DNA from: Gammaproteobacteria bacterium
Lineage (GTDB): Bacteria; Pseudomonadota; Gammaproteobacteria; SZUA-152
Reading direction: 5' to 3'
DNA length: 39,295 nt
Assembly: GCA_013151575.1 (NCBI GenBank)
Contig: JAADHZ010000042.1
Coordinates: 1-39,295 of the forward strand
Shown here: positions 14,569 to 25,184 of the stretch, piece by piece
How the letters are laid out: each line of letters begins with the position of its first letter
How positions within the stretch are numbered: position 1 is the first letter of the stretch
Notes under the pieces: model-generated
What the model was told of the DNA's origin: nothing
Databases searched by the model: none
What the model saw: the letters and a program-made list of their open reading frames with translations, nothing else
Position numbers and translations under genes: made by a program

Positions 14569-14618
14569 CATTTTCTAAGTGCAGTATTTTGATTCAATAT
14601 AATTAGGACATAGTGTTA

Positions 14619-15755
14619 ATGGGCTTTATCAAAACCAGATGGTGGGGGGTTGCCGTTGTCTCGGTGACACTTTTTGGGTGTTCGGGTGATGACGCCCCTC
14701 CGTCAACGCCGAGTGTTGCAACGCAAACACCGTCAGAGGTGGCCGCAGAGAGTGAGGTTACGAACAAAGATGGATATCGTGTTGCTGCGAGTTTTGGTGT
14801 TGGTGAAGACACCTACGTTCGTTCGATGGCTATCGACACCCAATCTAATGCTCTATGGGTAGGTACCAGTGTCGGAGTCATGGCGGTGGATTTAACTAGC
14901 ACCGATTTACGCGCGAGCTATACGCGCGAACAGGGGTTGGCCAATGAATACGTGTTCGGCATTCACATTGACCAAAAAGGCGATCGCTGGTTTGGTACCA
15001 ATGGTGGCGGCGTCTCAAAATTTACGACAGATAAGCAGTGGAAAACCTACTTCCCCATGCATGGCCTCGCGGACTATTGGGTGTATTCGTTCGCCGAGCA
15101 ATCCGACGGTACCTTATGGGTGGGAACTTGGGCTGGCCTCAGTCGGTTTGATCCCGAAAAAGAAATTTTCCATACGTATCTTGATGAGCTGGTGAACGAA
15201 TGGGTATATGGCCTGGGGGTGGACTCTAGGGATCGGGTGTGGATCGGTACCGAGGGCGGGGTCAATATGTTTGACGGGGCCTCCTGGTCTACATGGAAAC
15301 ATGAAGACGGCCTGGGTGCAGCCAACGATCAAAATCTTCCTCTCAGTACCAATACCGGCCTGGGGACGCGCTCGCGTCACGACCTGAGCGTTATGGGAGG
15401 GGGGCAGCTAACCTATAATCCCAATTACGTATTTTCTTTGATTGTCGCGACGGACGATACTATTTGGGCGGGTACTTGGGGTGGTGGTGTGGCCCACTAC
15501 GATGGCAAGAGCTGGACTAATTTTTCAAGCAAAGATGGGTTGGCCGGCAATATTGTCTACAGCGTCGCCCAGGATGAAAAAGGCGGCCTGTGGTTTGGCA
15601 CCAACGGTGGGTTGTCATATTTTGACGGTAAAACATGGCTCACTTTTGATCAATCCGACGGCTTGCTGGACAATAATATTTATGCCATTGCGCCGGACGC
15701 TGATGGACGTATTTGGGTGGGTAGCCGATCCGGCGTTGCTATGCTGGCACGCTAA
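14619..15755 (+). CDS. Reg_prop-type beta-propeller lipoprotein
   Basis: Lipobox TLFGC; repeated WVGTxGGV / GLANEYVFGI / DGxxWFGTNGG units; AGGA upstream of ATG 14619. Confidence 0.8.
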   Translation: MGFIKTRWWGVAVVSVTLFGCSGDDAPPSTPSVATQTPSEVAAESEVTNKDGYRVAASFGVGEDTYVRSMAIDTQSNALWVGTSVGVMAVDLTSTDLRASYTREQGLANEYVFGIHIDQKGDRWFGTNGGGVSKFTTDKQWKTYFPMHGLADYWVYSFAEQSDGTLWVGTWAGLSRFDPEKEIFHTYLDELVNEWVYGLGVDSRDRVWIGTEGGVNMFDGASWSTWKHEDGLGAANDQNLPLSTNTGLGTRSRHDLSVMGGGQLTYNPNYVFSLIVATDDTIWAGTWGGGVAHYDGKSWTNFSSKDGLAGNIVYSVAQDEKGGLWFGTNGGLSYFDGKTWLTFDQSDGLLDNNIYAIAPDADGRIWVGSRSGVAMLAR

Positions 15756-15835
15756 CTAAAGATGGCGAGTTACCGGGAATTTTTGGAATTTTGGACGATG
15801 CGCTCAGTGGTTGATGCGTTAGAGGGGAGAATGTT

Positions 15836-17080
15836 GTGAATATTGGTACGAAGGGTGCAGCAATAGCGATACTTCTTGTTGGAGGTTTAGTATTAGCCTC
15901 CTACAATTTTGGTTCTCGGCAGTCGGAAAAACAACCTGCAGCAGTGGTGTCGGCTGAGCAGATAGGGGAGAGGGGCGCGGGAGAGATGCCTCCCGGGCAT
16001 CCGGGGCCAGCAGCCGGTCGTGATTTGCTGCCCAGTGGCCAGGCTCAAGGTTCCGCTCGGTTCACGCATTTTCGCGTTGGCAATCGCAACGTCAAAGGCA
16101 TGATGGCCACTGAAAATGAAGTTTGGGTCGGGACCTCTGGTGGTGTTATTCGTTATGACCTGAAAACTGACGATTACAAATTATATGATGTGAAAAGTGG
16201 CAGCCTGATTTCCAATGGCGTGTTCCATGTCAGCAAAATTCGCGGCAAAATTATGGTGGGCACCTATGGCGGCGGACTCTCGGTGTATTCCCCGGATGCA
16301 GATGCCTGGAAAAACTACAATATTCCCGACGGCCTTGCCGATCAATTCGTGTATGACATTGCCGAGGATACCAATGGTGACTTTTGGATCGCGACCTGGT
16401 CCGGTGTGAATCGTGTACCTAATGGTAACCTGGATGACCCTGATGCTTGGGAAACCTTCACGGTGGAAAACACTAATGGCGGCCTTCCCAATGATTGGGT
16501 CTACGGTGTGGAAATAGGCAAAAATGGTGAAGTCTGGTTTGCCACCGAAGGTGGGTTAGCCAAGTTTAAGGATCGTAAGTGGACCAACTGGAAGCACGAA
16601 GATGGCTTAGGCGCACCGTACGAAAAAGTGAAGGCTGACATCACGTTTGCCAACGACCCCGCCAAATCCTCCAAACACCATGCGGCGCAAAAAAAGGAGC
16701 AGGGACTGAGTGACATAAAGGTCGGTTATAACCCCAATTACATTGTTTCGATGGTGGTGGACGAGCAGGGTGATGTGTGGGCAGGTACATGGGGTGGTGG
16801 TCTATCGCATTTTGATGGAAAAAAATGGGAAACCTTTACGGTACAGGAAGGCTTGCCGGGTAACCACGTGTTTATGTTGCGAAAAGAACGCGGCGGTAGC
16901 TTGTGGATCGGCACCAATCAAGGGCTTGCAAGGTTCAGTCAGGATGGAAAAGGTTTTAGAGTGATGACCAAGGCCGATGGTCTGTTTGCCAATAATGTGT
17001 TCTCTATGGCCAAGGCTTCCGATGGAAGCTTATGGGTCGGCAGTTTTGGTGGTGTTGCGAGAATTACGGATTACGAATAG
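15836..17080 (+). CDS. Exported Reg_prop-type beta-propeller protein, paralogue of preceding gene
   Basis: N-terminal TM/signal; WVGTSGGVIRYDL repeats; shared WKHEDGLGA and YNPNY segments; GTG start preceded by GAGGGGAG. Confidence 0.8.
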   Translation: MNIGTKGAAIAILLVGGLVLASYNFGSRQSEKQPAAVVSAEQIGERGAGEMPPGHPGPAAGRDLLPSGQAQGSARFTHFRVGNRNVKGMMATENEVWVGTSGGVIRYDLKTDDYKLYDVKSGSLISNGVFHVSKIRGKIMVGTYGGGLSVYSPDADAWKNYNIPDGLADQFVYDIAEDTNGDFWIATWSGVNRVPNGNLDDPDAWETFTVENTNGGLPNDWVYGVEIGKNGEVWFATEGGLAKFKDRKWTNWKHEDGLGAPYEKVKADITFANDPAKSSKHHAAQKKEQGLSDIKVGYNPNYIVSMVVDEQGDVWAGTWGGGLSHFDGKKWETFTVQEGLPGNHVFMLRKERGGSLWIGTNQGLARFSQDGKGFRVMTKADGLFANNVFSMAKASDGSLWVGSFGGVARITDYE

Positions 17081-17110
17081 TCACTATTTTAGTGTTATAT
17101 TGAAGTGAGG

Positions 17111-17141
17111 CCTCGCCAGGAATTTTTCCGGCGAGGTTTTT
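17111..17141 (+). terminator. Rho-independent terminator between Reg_prop protein and Kelch gene
   Basis: CCTCGCC...GGCGAGG followed by TTTTT. Confidence 0.8.
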
Positions 17142-17176
17142 CAGTTTTAAAGGTTGAATAAGTTGGAGACGCAAAA

Positions 17177-18505
17177 ATGAAAAATTTAGGCTTGGCTGGA
17201 GGGATGCTCTTGTTGCTATTAACATTGTTTTCGTGCGCCCCAGCAAAAGAATCGGTGTGGATACCCGGCTGGAAGGAATCGGCCGCCATGCAGGAATCTC
17301 GTGCTGGCGCCGCAGTGGTGGTAAACAACAACTTCATTTATATGATCGCTGGTGTAGACGGCCGAAACTTTTTGCGCAGCACAGAATATGCCCCCATTCT
17401 CGAAGATGGCGGCATCGGTGAATGGAAGCAAGGCCCTGCCCTGATAGAAGAACGTGGTTTCACCGAAGCAGTGGTGCGCAACGGCTATATTTATGTTGTT
17501 GGTGGAGGCAACGGACCCAATGGCCACAATTTGTTGCGTACTGTTGAACGCGCAAAAATAAATACGGATGGAAGTCTAGCGCCTTGGCGCCGCGAGAGCA
17601 GCCAGACGGTCTTGCCAAGACGCTGCACTAAATTGAGTGTGATTGGCGACTACTTGTATTCCTTTGGCGGTTTCGGTGGGGCACTGCTGGATAGTGTTGA
17701 ATACGCAAAAATAAACAGTGATGGTAGCGTGGGTGAATGGACGATGGCTTCAGAATCCATGACCTTGCCTCGTTATGTGAACAGTGTGAAGGCAGTCAAA
17801 GGGCAGGCCCTGGTTATCGGTGGTCATGACCAGAAAAAAGGTGTCGGTATTTCTGATGTGGAATGGGCTCGACCGGATAAAAATGGTGATATCCACACCT
17901 GGAAAAAAACCAGTTCTTTGAAAACGGGGCGTTACGGGTTAGCGTCGGCAAAGATGGGTAGCACCATTTTTGCTATCGGTGGCTTGACCGGACTCGAGTA
18001 TTTGAAAAGTATCGAAAAAACATCAGTCTTGAGCGCTGGGGGCGTATCTGCTTGGCAGGAAACCACCCCTCTTAGTGTGCCGCGTGCAACTTTCAGCGCG
18101 GTGGCCCACAATGGCTACCTCTATGTATTGGGGGGTTCCAATCGTGACGGTTATCTACGCAGCGTTGAGTTTGCTGCGATCAACCCGCAGGGGGATCCGG
18201 GCTTTTGGGGTAGCCTGGAGGAGCGAGATGGCTATAATGCCCGACTAACAATGCTGGCCGAGTCAAGCCCCGCACTGCCTAATCAAGGTGTTGTAAAACA
18301 GATTTTGAATACAGAAATGTACAGCTATGTGGAGGTACTGAGTCAGGGGACGTTGTTTTGGCTGGCCGGGCCCAAAGTGGATTTTCCGGTGAATACCCGT
18401 ATCCATTTCAGCAAGGGAGTGAAAATGACTAATTTTTTCAGCAAGGAGTTACAGCGGCCATTCCCAGAAGTCAACTTTGTTAGCCGTATCGAAAAAGCCA
18501 AGTGA
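17177..18505 (+). CDS. Kelch-repeat-like lipoprotein
   Basis: Lipobox TLFSC; repeated YVVGGxNG...LRTVERAKI / YVLGGSNRDGYLRSVEFA units. Confidence 0.8.
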   Translation: MKNLGLAGGMLLLLLTLFSCAPAKESVWIPGWKESAAMQESRAGAAVVVNNNFIYMIAGVDGRNFLRSTEYAPILEDGGIGEWKQGPALIEERGFTEAVVRNGYIYVVGGGNGPNGHNLLRTVERAKINTDGSLAPWRRESSQTVLPRRCTKLSVIGDYLYSFGGFGGALLDSVEYAKINSDGSVGEWTMASESMTLPRYVNSVKAVKGQALVIGGHDQKKGVGISDVEWARPDKNGDIHTWKKTSSLKTGRYGLASAKMGSTIFAIGGLTGLEYLKSIEKTSVLSAGGVSAWQETTPLSVPRATFSAVAHNGYLYVLGGSNRDGYLRSVEFAAINPQGDPGFWGSLEERDGYNARLTMLAESSPALPNQGVVKQILNTEMYSYVEVLSQGTLFWLAGPKVDFPVNTRIHFSKGVKMTNFFSKELQRPFPEVNFVSRIEKAK

Positions 18506-19399: not shown

Positions 19400-20458
19400 C
19401 TATTTGGCGTGGCAGGTCAGGCAGAGTGCACTCGGCCCCCCGCTGAAGCTCCCGCCTTGTGCGATGCCCGTGGTGCCTGCATGAGTGCCGGCAACACCGT
19501 TATTGACGCGCAGAAAACTGGGGTTAAAGCGCGAGGTAGGGTCTCCGGGCTTGGAAGGCACGCCGTGTGGGTCATGGCAGGAAGCACATTCCACCTCGTA
19601 GCCACCGCCACTATCATACAGCCGTACTTCGCTGGGGTCCGCGTGGCTGTTACCATTGAGGTCAAAAAAGGCTATGCCTCCTTTTCCCCCTCCGCGGGCC
19701 TGTCTGACTGAAGGGTTATTGAAATCCCCCTGGCCTGGGTCCGGGAAAAGGATGCCGACCGGGTGGTCGTTTCGCAGGTCTGTGCCGAGCATGAACGCTG
19801 CGTAGCTTCCAATACGGCCATTAACCATACTGTTGTGACAGCCTGCACATGTGTCGGTTACTGACCCGACAGTTAGGCTCGGATCTTGCCCTGCCAGCTC
19901 CGGCCCTAGCGTGGCATGCTGTCCTGGGGGTGGGCCGGTAAAACCGCCTGCATTCCATTTGCTCAGGAAGGCTATATTGGATGTGCCCTCAGAGTTGTTT
20001 GCCAGGCCACTGTTCGTGGGATCCAGTCCTGAACCGGGCATGTTCAACACCGAGTCAATGGCAATGGTACCATCGTGGCAGGACAAACAGGTCAGAGAGG
20101 CCGGGCCAGGCGCGCCGATTGGACGGTTCAGGGTGCGGGGTTTGTCATAAATAATGTAATTTCCAGGGTTGACTGTGCGGTTCCACAGCGGTGCATCCAC
20201 CTTCGTATTACCCCCGTGCGGGGTGTGACAGTAAACACAAACGGCACCATAGTCGTTGCGTTTAGCATTCATGTTGAAGCCGAGATCCCTGTCCCCACCA
20301 AATTCTTTGTAGTTCATGGTCAAATTATGCCGAGTATTGCCTATGCTGCCTTTGGTGGTGGCGCTAGACCCTGGGTCCCAACCGTCGGCAACTGTGTAAC
20401 TGCTGATGGCTAACAAAACGGTGCCGACCGATGCCCCTATTTTGATTTTTAGTTCCAC
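19400..20458 (-). CDS. Exported multihaem c-type cytochrome, 5 CxxCH (CVYCH, CLSCH, CAGCH, CASCH, CLTCH)
   Basis: Signal peptide; five CxxCH; GTDLRNDHP motif; ends CLTCHAK*. Confidence 0.92.
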   Translation of the reverse strand: MELKIKIGASVGTVLLAISSYTVADGWDPGSSATTKGSIGNTRHNLTMNYKEFGGDRDLGFNMNAKRNDYGAVCVYCHTPHGGNTKVDAPLWNRTVNPGNYIIYDKPRTLNRPIGAPGPASLTCLSCHDGTIAIDSVLNMPGSGLDPTNSGLANNSEGTSNIAFLSKWNAGGFTGPPPGQHATLGPELAGQDPSLTVGSVTDTCAGCHNSMVNGRIGSYAAFMLGTDLRNDHPVGILFPDPGQGDFNNPSVRQARGGGKGGIAFFDLNGNSHADPSEVRLYDSGGGYEVECASCHDPHGVPSKPGDPTSRFNPSFLRVNNGVAGTHAGTTGIAQGGSFSGGPSALCLTCHAK

Positions 20459-20628
20459 TGGAAACGCTCCCTGTAGAGTGTTCTGTTAATTTGGTGCAGC
20501 GTACGAGGTGGTGCCCGCTACAAATGTGAGGTCAAAACCGTGCCGATCAATTGCCGACAACTTATTTATACGTTTATAGGATTAATATATACCATGCTGG
20601 GGGGGTTAATTGCAATTCAGACGCGTGG

Positions 20629-21747
20629 TTAGTCCTTCGGCGGAGCTAGGTGTTCTCCCCCCAGGTAGCCCTGCTCGGCCGTGAGGCTGCTCGGCCGAAA
20701 AACGTCCACTTTGCGGAAAAATTGATCGGCAACGTACACTCGGTCGTCTTCATCGATAGCAATACCGGAGGGCAACAGGTAGTTAGCGGGACCGCCCTGC
20801 CTGCCGCGCTGACCAATGTACATGAGTAGTCTGGCTTTATTGTCGAATATCTGAAAATTTCCGAATGCGGAGTCAACCACGTAGATATTACCCTTGCTGT
20901 CGGTGGCTATGCCTTTGGGGCGGGAAAAATTGCCGCTTTTGCGGCCTACGTTGCCGAATGCAAATTTCAGGCTGCCATCGGGGTTAAATGCCTGTACTCG
21001 AAAGTTGCCGGTATCGGTAACATAAATGGTGCCTTCAGCATCGGTGGTTACCTGTAGTGGTAAATTAAAATCCCCTTCTTGCGTGCCCCGGGTGCCGATG
21101 GTCTGCTTGAGTTCGCCAGTTTTGGCGTCAAATACGTACAGGTGATGCTCTTGGGTGTCGATGCCCCCAGTATCGATAACATAAGCGGTGTTGCCGTCCG
21201 GGCTGACGGCGACTCCGGATGGGCGTCTGAGGATTGTACGGTCCCCAAAGGCACGTAGGAATTCACCATCAGTGTTGAATATCACGATGCGTTTGCCGGT
21301 GTTATCAGCGACAAAAATTTCATCTTGCGACGATACGGCAATACCGATGGGCTTACGTAATGTCCCCGGCCCCTTTGTGCCGAACATCTTGAAATTTCGG
21401 CCGGGCACGTCGAACATTAAAACGGCACGTTTGACGGTGTCCGTGACATAGACTCTGCCTTTGCGTACGGCGATGCCATAGGGTTTGCCCAGCGCGGTGG
21501 CGGTACCCATGCTGCCGGTGGCAAATTGTCGTAATTTGTCCGCAGCGGTTACTTCCTTTACGTCGAAGCTGCTGCGCAAAGTGAGTTCATAGGTGAGGCG
21601 TGCTTTAGCAGGTGGTGATGGGAAAATTAGCTCTTTCTTGGGGCCGCGAATATCGTCGCTGGCACAGCCCGCAAGGGCTAGCGCGACGCCACTTAAAAGG
21701 GTGAAGTGGCAAATCGTCTTTTTTATTTTATGTGGCAGGTGAAACAT
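20629..21747 (-). CDS. NHL-repeat (six-bladed propeller) lipoprotein
   Basis: Lipobox ALAGC; repeats such as LRKPIGIAVSSQDEIFVADNTGKRIVIFNTDGEFLRAFG. Confidence 0.9.
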   Translation of the reverse strand: MFHLPHKIKKTICHFTLLSGVALALAGCASDDIRGPKKELIFPSPPAKARLTYELTLRSSFDVKEVTAADKLRQFATGSMGTATALGKPYGIAVRKGRVYVTDTVKRAVLMFDVPGRNFKMFGTKGPGTLRKPIGIAVSSQDEIFVADNTGKRIVIFNTDGEFLRAFGDRTILRRPSGVAVSPDGNTAYVIDTGGIDTQEHHLYVFDAKTGELKQTIGTRGTQEGDFNLPLQVTTDAEGTIYVTDTGNFRVQAFNPDGSLKFAFGNVGRKSGNFSRPKGIATDSKGNIYVVDSAFGNFQIFDNKARLLMYIGQRGRQGGPANYLLPSGIAIDEDDRVYVADQFFRKVDVFRPSSLTAEQGYLGGEHLAPPKD

Positions 21748-22589
21748 AGGACCTCGGCGTTAGCTCTCAATAGCAGTTCTCTTGATGGGTCATGCACGTT
21801 ATGGCATGTCATGCATTCCACTTTTCCATTATACAGTTTTACTCCGTTGTCAAACCCATTGGACGTATCCGGGGGACGAAAGTCTACATCCCGAAAATTC
21901 AGGCCGGCGTATTGCATGGAAATCGGATGGTCATTACGCAGGTCCGTGCCTAGCATTTTGACAGAAATATCATGTGCAATCTGTCCATTGTGGCACTTGC
22001 CGCAGCTTTCGATGTTGTCGTCGGGGCTGATGCGCATGTGCATGGCATTGTCTTCCGCCGGGTCAAACGTTGCGGGTCGGAATACCACCATATCGATCGC
22101 CATGGTGCCATCGTGGCAGGAGAGACACAACATGCTGATGGGGTTGGGGCCGCTGGTTTTGTTGTCCAGCGTTGCGCTATCGTAGAGTTGGTAATTGCTT
22201 AAGGCCGGGACATAGCGGTTCCATCCATCAATGCCGCCGAAATCCTGCGGGTCTGCTCCAACTTCCTCCGGCGGAATGTGGCAATACACACAGGAATAGC
22301 CGTAGTCTGAAAAGGCGACGCCGGCCATGGCCACTACTCCCGCGCGGTCATTGAGGCCGGTGAAGTCGTGTTTGGAACCGAGAATAGGGTCATCTGCTCC
22401 CAGCACAGGGTCGCCGACGATTGCTTGGGAAAATGCGAAGGTTGCCCAGGAAAGTCCGGCAAGCAACAGAGAAAAAAAGACGAGTTTTTCGCCAATGCCT
22501 GGGGTTTTTGGGCGTGTTGACATAGTTATTATTCCAAGCTGTAAACGATCGTTCGGTGGGGTGGTTTGCCCCAGTCGGCGATTAGTCAT
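21723..22589 (-). CDS. Exported multihaem c-type cytochrome, 5 CxxCH (CVYCH, CLSCH, CGKCH, CMTCH, CFTCH), paralogue of 19400..20458
   Basis: Five CxxCH; shared GTDLRNDHP and CLSCHDGTxAID; ends CFTCHIK*. Start may lie downstream of 22589. Confidence 0.9.
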   Translation of the reverse strand: MTNRRLGQTTPPNDRLQLGIITMSTRPKTPGIGEKLVFFSLLLAGLSWATFAFSQAIVGDPVLGADDPILGSKHDFTGLNDRAGVVAMAGVAFSDYGYSCVYCHIPPEEVGADPQDFGGIDGWNRYVPALSNYQLYDSATLDNKTSGPNPISMLCLSCHDGTMAIDMVVFRPATFDPAEDNAMHMRISPDDNIESCGKCHNGQIAHDISVKMLGTDLRNDHPISMQYAGLNFRDVDFRPPDTSNGFDNGVKLYNGKVECMTCHNVHDPSRELLLRANAEVLCFTCHIK

Positions 22590-22914: not shown

Positions 22915-24219
22915 ATGAACAAAAAAACTGCTTGGGTTCTAGCTGCTGTGCTTAGTGCAAATTTGGGAGTGCTGAGCGGGCTGCATGCCGCACCAGCTGT
23001 GCAGACTAAGGAACAAAGTATTCCAAAACTTTATCAGAAATATTGTTCTATTTGTCATGGTGACAAGGGAAATGCACAAACGCGCGCGCGCTCAGGCATG
23101 ACCCCCAAACCCCGGGATTTTTCCTCCGCGAAAGCGGCTATTGAACTGACCCGTGAGCGCATGATAAAGGCCGTGACGGAAGGTCGTCCGGGTACGGCGA
23201 TGGTCGGGCATAAGCGTGTGCTGTCCGAAGAGCAGATCGCCGGGATCGTGGATTATATTCGTGCCAATTTCATGCAGTTGCCCGTGGCGGAGGAGTCCAG
23301 CGTGTCGGAGCCGGTGAGTCCTGGCGAAAAGGTCTACGTTAAAAATTGTCGCGTATGCCACGGCGACAAGGGGAATACCTCATATTGGGCAAAAAATGGC
23401 CTGAATCCACCACCCCGGGACTTTACGGCCTCCGAGGCGCAGCGCATCTTTACGCGCCAACGCATGATTAATTCGATCACTCACGGGCGTCCTGGCACCG
23501 GTATGATGCCTTTTAACTCGCGTCTGTCAGAGGTCGAAATTGCCGCTGTGGTGCGCTACATACGCTTCGCTTTCATGGGGGTGAACCCTGATACTGACAC
23601 GGGCGCTACACCGCTTCTCCAAGTGAGTTCTGAGTCGCCTTCGGAGTTGACCCCGAGCAGCCCCGCTCCCGTATCAGCCCCGTTGGAAAGTGCCCCCAAA
23701 ACGACTGAACCTTCACCTCCGCCCGTAGCGGCTGCTCTGGGTCTGGGAATGCCGGGTGAGCAGGCAATGTCGGCGCTGTCCGTTGCTACACCGGGGGGAG
23801 GTGGAAAGGGGCACATGGACGTGGATATGTCATTGCCCTTTCCCAATGATTTAGCTGGGGATTTTGCCGCTGGGCGTGAGTTTTACATGAAAAATTGCTT
23901 CACTTGTCACGGGGTAAAGGGGAACGGCAATGGGCCGCGCGCCTATTTCAATACCCCTCGTCCGCGCGATTTCACCAGCACGGCATCGCGCCAGATTCTC
24001 AACCGTCCGCGTCTGCTTGATGGTATCACCAAAGGGCGGCCGGGTACGGTCATGCCAGCCTGGGGCAAGGTGCTTTCGCCGCAGGAAGTTGCCAACGTGG
24101 CGGAATTTGTGTTCCAGACTTTTGTCCACCCCGCCAAGGCGGAACCCGCTGATGGCAAGGGCCCCAGTCGCGACGGTGGTGATGCTGTCGAAACAGAAGG
24201 CAAAAAAAAAGCCGGTTAA
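22915..24219 (+). CDS. Exported tri-domain c-type cytochrome (CSICH, CRVCH, CFTCH); possibly the N-terminal part of a hexahaem protein
   Basis: Signal peptide MNKKTAWVLAAVLSANLGVLSGLHA; three repeated CxxCHGxxGN...PRDF...GRPGTxM domains; ends right after an A9 run. Confidence 0.9.
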   Translation: MNKKTAWVLAAVLSANLGVLSGLHAAPAVQTKEQSIPKLYQKYCSICHGDKGNAQTRARSGMTPKPRDFSSAKAAIELTRERMIKAVTEGRPGTAMVGHKRVLSEEQIAGIVDYIRANFMQLPVAEESSVSEPVSPGEKVYVKNCRVCHGDKGNTSYWAKNGLNPPPRDFTASEAQRIFTRQRMINSITHGRPGTGMMPFNSRLSEVEIAAVVRYIRFAFMGVNPDTDTGATPLLQVSSESPSELTPSSPAPVSAPLESAPKTTEPSPPPVAAALGLGMPGEQAMSALSVATPGGGGKGHMDVDMSLPFPNDLAGDFAAGREFYMKNCFTCHGVKGNGNGPRAYFNTPRPRDFTSTASRQILNRPRLLDGITKGRPGTVMPAWGKVLSPQEVANVAEFVFQTFVHPAKAEPADGKGPSRDGGDAVETEGKKKAG

Positions 24220-25184
24220 AGGCAGCGGGCCAGCCGACGGCTCTCGATAAAATCCAGCGACCCCGCCACGAGCGGGGTCGCGCTATTTACAATTTTCGCT
24301 GTTATTTTTGTCATGGTTATTCTGGTGATGCCAAAACCCTCGCGGCCAGTTATTTGACTCCGCGCCCGCGCAGTTTCATTGCTACTGATCCGGGCGACAT
24401 CAGCCGCGAGACCATGCTTGCTGCCGTCACCCATGGGCGCGCCAACACTGCCATGCAGAGCTTTGCCAACACCATCAGTGTGGAGGACATCGCACTGGTG
24501 GTGGATTTTGTGCGGGATGAATTCATGCGCGACAAGGCCGTCAATACGCGCTATCACACCGTCGAAAACGGCTGGCCAAAGCACGAACAATACGCTGACG
24601 CCTTTCCGTTTGCGCTGGGTGATATCCTGCTGGATACGCCCGATGCGCAACTCAGCCCGACGCAGTTGCGCGGCAAGCGGATTTTCATGCAAGGCTGCGT
24701 GACTTGCCACGACCGTGCCAAGGTGGCGGATGAAGGCGTTATTTGGGATGCGCGCCCAGTGTCATTCCCTCGCAATCAGTATTCCCATCGTGAAAGTGAG
24801 CGCTCACCTTCGGTGGATAGTATGAGCGAGGCATCACCGTATGCCCGTCATGAGCGGGCCCCGGTGCTGGCGAACCTTACTGTCGAGGAGCGGGCCGGGG
24901 AGCACATTTTTCAGAAAAATTGCGCTTTTTGCCACGCCCCCGACGGCACAGGAAAAAACTGGATAGGCAGTTTTTTAGAACCGCACCCCCGCAATCTCAC
25001 GGATGAAAAATTTATGTCGGGCATGACCCGGCAGCGTTTGACGACGGTGATTCGGAAGGGATTGCCGGGCACCACCATGCCCGCATGGGGCGGGGTGTTG
25101 GATGGGGAGCAGATCGCTGCCGTGGTCGCCTACGTCAATCGGGCTTTTCATCCTCTGGCCGATGGCGCCATTTCAGCAGATTAA
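24210..25184 (+). CDS. Continuation of the cytochrome in the -1 frame (CYFCH, CVTCH, CAFCH); no independent ATG/GTG/TTG start ahead of the first haem motif
   Basis: Reading the frame of ORF 24354..25184 upstream gives ...SRLKAAGQPTALDKIQRPRHERGRAIYNFRCYFCHGYSGDAKTLAASYLTPRPRSF; in-frame upstream stop is TGA at 24180..24182. Confidence 0.75.
   Translation, partial: SRLKAAGQPTALDKIQRPRHERGRAIYNFRCYFCHGYSGDAKTLAASYLTPRPRSFIATDPGDISRETMLAAVTHGRANTAMQSFANTISVEDIALVVDFVRDEFMRDKAVNTRYHTVENGWPKHEQYADAFPFALGDILLDTPDAQLSPTQLRGKRIFMQGCVTCHDRAKVADEGVIWDARPVSFPRNQYSHRESERSPSVDSMSEASPYARHERAPVLANLTVEERAGEHIFQKNCAFCHAPDGTGKNWIGSFLEPHPRNLTDEKFMSGMTRQRLTTVIRKGLPGTTMPAWGGVLDGEQIAAVVAYVNRAFHPLADGAISAD

Follow-up and report, generated by a model that had tools for sequence, protein, structure and literature searches.

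Reading frames of the split cytochrome

In the stretch of DNA analysed here (39,295 nucleotides, referred to as the window), a cytochrome gene is divided between two overlapping reading frames at a run of nine adenines (A9), raising the question of whether it is a broken gene, a sequence error, or a gene from which two proteins are made. The window makes up one contig of a 2.48-Mb draft genome (173 contigs, 86% complete). On the forward strand, the upstream part (0 frame; 22915..24219) encodes an exported tri-haem c-type cytochrome of 434 aa that ends in KKKAG*, with the haem motifs CSICH, CRVCH and CFTCH and an N-terminus, MNKKTAWVLAAVLSANLGVLSGLHAAPA, that was recognized by eye as a Sec signal. 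The A9 run lies at 24202..24210, in phase as AAA AAA AAA G, with a C before it and GCC GGT TAA after it; the ORF thus ends in ...GGC AAA AAA AAA GCC GGT TAA, and the stop that terminates the tri-haem product (24217..24219) is two codons past the run. The downstream part (24210..25184) is in the -1 frame and consists of a short linker followed by three haem domains (haems 4-6) with the motifs CYFCH, CVTCH and CAFCH. Its frame begins after a TGA at 24180..24182 and ends at 25184, and no ATG, GTG or TTG was found in this frame before the haem motif at 24300. In both halves the CxxCH motifs lie in Cytochrome_CBB3-type domains that score above the Pfam cut-off, with three Cytochrome_CBB3 stretches in the upstream part, and each half is a Cytochrome_CBB3-type tri-haem protein.

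An earlier note on this DNA, made from the letters alone, had placed the ORFs, the A9 run, an AGAAGG element and the stops where direct reading also places them, and its account of a downstream frame that runs back to the TGA with no start before the haem motif is correct for the window. Its proposal that a -1 shift at A9 fuses both parts into a protein of about 756 aa with six CxxCH motifs was borne out by translation (432 + 324 = 756 residues). The assembly holds 29 runs of exactly nine As, and this is the only one situated between two long overlapping frames.

Conservation of the A run and the frame relation

Each half was searched against 57 genomes, comprising the window's own and related ones, and adjacent matches of both halves were found in most genomes of the window's family and also in two further families. 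Complete cases number 22 (the window plus 21 relatives, from three families). Every one has exactly nine As in phase, and in each of them the downstream cytochrome is in the -1 frame and lacks a signal peptide. The 0-frame stop is two codons past A9 in 19 of the 22 and at most six codons past it in every case, and 14, the window included, have no ATG, GTG or TTG at all before haem 4. A wider scan of 84,980 species genomes gave 271 relatives, of which 80 were kept, and further relatives came from searches by class and family; after removal of duplicates, this wider Pseudomonadota set contained 68 distinct loci with a run of eight to ten As in the overlap. The run was A9 in 61 loci, A10 in six and A8 in one. 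The frame relation was -1 in all 68 and never in frame, with phases 0, 1 and 2 all present, and in 60 loci the 0-frame stop was within four codons of the run. The earlier note had suggested looking for A9 together with the frame break in relatives, and both are clearly conserved. In 33 of the 68 loci the window from the -1-frame stop to the 0-frame stop is 30 nt or less (minimum 13), and the shift must therefore take place at the run. The site, its conservation and the fixed -1 relation are matters of observation. Every one of the 165 lysine codons at the 55 in-phase sites is AAA, compared with 51% elsewhere in the same genes, an excess with a naive log10 P of about -60 that ignores shared ancestry.

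Strong purifying selection acts on the downstream part (median dN/dS of 0.087 over 28 pairs of relatives), whose haem motifs are conserved in every row of the alignment. That a second start and signal are missing, and that the downstream frame is under selection, can likewise be read directly from the DNA. Downstream-type cytochromes without an adjacent tri-haem partner were also observed (L204, L209 and L170, in genomes G380 and G115).

It is hardly credible that a sequencing or assembly indel conceals a true run of eight or ten As in what is simply one ORF: homopolymers are prone to errors and the window comes from a fragmented assembly, but the same A9 and frame relation recur in the 21 relatives, which were assembled separately, and among the 68 loci an in-frame version of the A run is absent. 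No more credible is a pseudogene with a dead downstream half, which would account for the broken frame and the lack of its own start, but not for a dN/dS of about 0.09, haem motifs kept in all rows and an identical break common to several families.

Other architectures of the locus

In one genus (six loci) the A run is absent, and the overlap instead carries CCG GGA AAG, which gives G_GGA_AAG in X_XXY_YYZ phase. Past this heptamer the -1 frame always encodes the peptide EVGGYQH, while the 0-frame peptide is variable, and the synonymous share of codon differences is 29% in the -1 frame versus 14% in the 0 frame. A GGAG is found about 14 nt upstream of the heptamer in most of these loci, which are close relatives. 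Two sister loci (L130/L225 and L138/L226) combine an A9 or A8 run with a G_GGA_AAG that follows it, directly ahead of a displaced stop, and represent an intermediate stage in the replacement of one site by the other. A slip-prone motif in a frame fit for re-pairing is present in the overlap as A9 (24202..24210) in the window, as A8-A10 in the 68 loci, and as G_GGA_AAG in the six loci plus the two with both motifs; a canonical heptamer is present as A_AAA_AAA in the A9 sites and as G_GGA_AAG in the derived genus.

Homopolymer runs act as contingency switches in many bacteria, and the A run could in principle be one, replication slippage producing cells in which the gene is ON (in frame) or OFF. 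This form of phase variation is most improbable, since none of the 68 loci has its run in frame, against an expectation of about one third, run length is near-invariant, and the replacement G_GGA_AAG is incapable of replication slippage.

The earlier note had also called for a search for unsplit homologues, and one continuous ORF, with no A run, was found in two genomes, G213 (L202/L218) and G398 (L219), so that a fused protein does exist as a type of product. Four other candidate single-ORF fusions (L111, L131, L139 and L170) were rejected because the haem-3 query had matched haem 4, and a fifth (L132) was an artefact.

In about 38 further loci the A run is missing and the second gene is equipped with a start of its own and with a hydrophobic signal, of either Sec or lipoprotein type. 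Their hosts include Aromatoleum, Azoarcus, Gallionella, Magnetococcales and Motiliproteus, among others. The proteins are homologous to those of the A-run loci and are encoded in the same order; unlike in the A-run loci, the second gene has its own start and signal and the run is missing. Many of these two-gene relatives have ATGA-like overlaps, also in a -1 relation. Such loci invite the explanation that the A-run loci too make two separate proteins, the downstream part arising by coupled or non-AUG re-initiation. This is very unlikely. The maximum 12-aa hydropathy before haem 4 is at most 1.43 in shift and fused loci versus at least 1.64 in two-gene loci, with no overlap (L005, which the script had sorted into the wrong hydropathy class, is counted in the A class); the A-run loci thus lack a hydrophobic segment before haem 4, and a separate product could therefore not be exported for haem attachment. 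Moreover, the 14 of 22 loci devoid of any ATG, GTG or TTG include the window itself, and re-initiation leaves the A run without explanation. Among the shift, two-gene and fused states at least six changes are needed on a 123-row tree, which is unrooted, has many weak branches and does not distinguish gain from loss.

According to the earlier note, a programmed shift would be refuted by relatives in which a start and a signal peptide belong to the downstream part itself. Such relatives do exist, and it is a counterpoint to the programmed shift that about 38 homologous loci manage without a slip, but all of them lack the A run; they are an alternative architecture and no refutation for loci that have neither start nor signal. 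The note's candidate reading, a programmed -1 frameshift as opposed to a broken gene or an indel, is strongly supported, because A9 occupies an identical position in genomes assembled independently of one another and always with a -1 relation, and because the downstream part is under purifying selection, G_GGA_AAG replaces the run in one genus and single-ORF relatives exist. We are therefore confident that one gene gives rise to both a tri-haem and a hexa-haem protein by programmed -1 recoding. The frame break is neither error nor decay, and although the gene looks broken, it very probably is not.

Mechanism, function and comparison with known systems

Under programmed recoding, ordinary decoding would read AAA AAA AAA GCC GGT TAA and end at the tri-haem protein, while in a fraction of decoding events a -1 slip at A9 would bypass the TAA and add three more haem domains. 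The slipped product would be one hexa-haem protein, about 756 aa in length, whose export would rely on the sole N-terminal signal peptide. The molecular step of the slip is one that we infer from sequence, and two routes may be considered. RNA polymerase slippage could add one A, turning A9 into A10 in the mRNA, or tandem tRNA-Lys slippage could occur on A_AAA_AAA, as an alternative or a partner. At A9 the two are inseparable on sequence grounds. We slightly favour the view that polymerase slippage contributes or dominates at these sites, with tRNA-Lys slippage nearly as probable.

Bacterial polymerase slips efficiently at runs of nine As or Ts (PMC5009743), and frameshifting in cassettes reached 10, 40 and 63% with 7, 9 and 11 As, respectively (PMC3711429). 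Transcriptional slippage is expected to leave a homopolymer of about nine or more, conserved in length and in any phase, and A9 or A10 was found in 67 of 68 loci. Free direction of the shift, a criterion of transcriptional slippage used by Antonov et al., was not seen, all loci being -1; these authors take constant direction across orthologues to point to the ribosome and not to transcriptional slippage (PMC3711429). Here the direction is weak evidence and may be inherited, because the two-gene relatives are mostly -1 too.

A purely ribosomal -1 slip on A_AAA_AAA, in which the polymerase plays no part, is a serious possibility, although we lean somewhat against it. The constant -1 direction agrees with it, as does the genus that swapped A9 for a ribosomal heptamer with GGAG about 14 nt upstream in most loci. 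However, ribosomes would accept, and even prefer, AAG as the last codon, and none of the in-phase sites has AAG; the run is nine or longer in all but one locus, and stimulators are not conserved. The earlier note had seen a dnaX-type stimulator in the SD-like AGAAGG (24195..24200, forward strand), but this element occurs at only one of 68 sites, so that its role is unsupported and a dnaX-type mechanism is not specifically supported. SD-like elements upstream of the run were weakly enriched (10 of 68 loci versus 7% in the control), and no conserved 3' structure was found in the A-run loci at the spacing of programmed ribosomal frameshifting (PRF; +3..+60; mean z -0.65 versus -0.44 in controls). 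Since both are unremarkable, dnaX-type stimulators are unsupported. The constant nine As fit RNA polymerase slippage at least as well as a dnaX-type mechanism.

A stable hairpin (GCGACCCCGC-CACGA-GCGGGGTCGC) does lie within 24257..24284 on the forward strand, about 45 nt 3' of A9, and is also present in close relatives; it sits too far off for a usual PRF stimulator. The same site forms a strong hairpin in L033-L037, about 40-75 nt 3' of the run, and by eye the stem pairing is kept among genus members via paired changes, for example CCCCGCTC/GAGCGGGG to CCCTGTTC/GAACAGGG.

In the derived genus with G_GGA_AAG, it is most likely the ribosome that slips. For ribosomal slippage in E. coli, V_VV.A_AA.G heptamers perform best, and G_GG.A_AA.G is among the three best -1 heptamers there (PMC4066793). 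The natural variants (loci with A9, with both sites or with G_GGA_AAG only, single ORFs and two genes) make the question of polymerase or ribosome directly testable.

Divergent from the cytochrome gene, on the reverse strand, are a 5-haem paired-CXXCH cytochrome that matches PDB 7tfs (21723..22589), an NHL-propeller lipoprotein (20629..21747) and a second 5-haem paired-CXXCH cytochrome that matches PDB 9yuq and 7tfs (19400..20458). The 7tfs matches of the two 5-haem proteins have E-values of 1e-13 and 6e-11, and 7tfs is the OmcE filament of Geobacter. Where at least 4 kb of upstream sequence was available, homologues of the NHL gene were found at 31/31 A-run and 25/25 two-gene loci, and those of the 5-haem genes at 31/31 and 18/25, respectively. 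The divergent cluster (19400..22589) may give these bacteria a cytochrome-filament system. Nearby, at 14613..18505, lie the genes for three propeller-type proteins (two Reg_prop and one Kelch), and such proteins also occur beside some relatives' loci. Because 5-haem cytochromes with 7tfs matches and an NHL gene adjoin the locus, we infer a role in extracellular electron transfer, in which the slip would fix the proportion of tri-haem to hexa-haem carriers, both probably periplasmic, for an OmcE-like cluster. More tentatively still, a -1 fusion that this electron-transfer locus requires may be maintained by interchangeable routes, namely polymerase slippage at A9, ribosome slippage at G_GGA_AAG or permanent fusion, while other lineages use two genes, and the slip may set the tri-/hexa-haem ratio of an extracellular electron-transfer chain. 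If so, a switch from transcriptional to translational recoding would be naturally recorded in the clade that has both sites.

To our knowledge, few conserved programmed frameshifts exist in ordinary bacterial chromosomal genes. A search of the full-text literature for frameshifting together with multihaem, hexahaem or c-type cytochromes, which covered only a minority of subscription papers and supplementary tables, returned nothing relevant, and neither the GeneTack survey nor the part of a recoding review that was covered mentions such a cytochrome case. Programmed -1 recoding is already known as a kind; what is unusual here is the range of natural variants. The frameshifted cytochrome spans many genera and is easily mistaken in annotation for a pseudogene, or for a truncated ORF with a start inside a haem domain. 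For many uncultured Gammaproteobacteria, the haem inventory is corrected to one hexa-haem protein in place of two fragments.

The Uet pathway of Tenderiales and Gallionella, which serves extracellular electron uptake, resembles this cluster in combining multihaem cytochromes with NHL-repeat proteins, but UetD/E/G are Cytochrome_C7-type tri-haem proteins (PMC10734462). Membership of the halves in that pathway was rejected, as they match Cytochrome_CBB3/Cytochrom_C. Transposases of the IS1/IS3 type also fuse two ORFs by a -1 shift at A_AAA_AAA/G or G_GGA_AAG (PMC4066793); these belong to mobile elements, whereas the cytochrome locus is a chromosomal electron-transfer gene that lacks conserved stimulators. 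Like the cytochrome locus, dnaX is a cellular gene with a slip site in an A or T run and two products of fixed relation, and either the ribosome or the polymerase slips depending on lineage, with ribosomal A_AAA_AAG in E. coli and polymerase slippage at a nine-base run in Thermus (PMC5009743). The E. coli shift truncates its product and has an SD and a 3' stem-loop as stimulators, while the cytochrome shift extends the product by three haem domains and conserves neither stimulator. Another parallel is provided by two-ORF dnaX genes, for example those of Chlorobium and Chloroherpeton (7-10 As; PMC3711429), whose long product, like the hexa-haem protein, needs a slip at a poly-A run of comparable length; they differ in gene and in bacterial group, and of the cytochrome clades one has switched to G_GGA_AAG and another has fused its frames.
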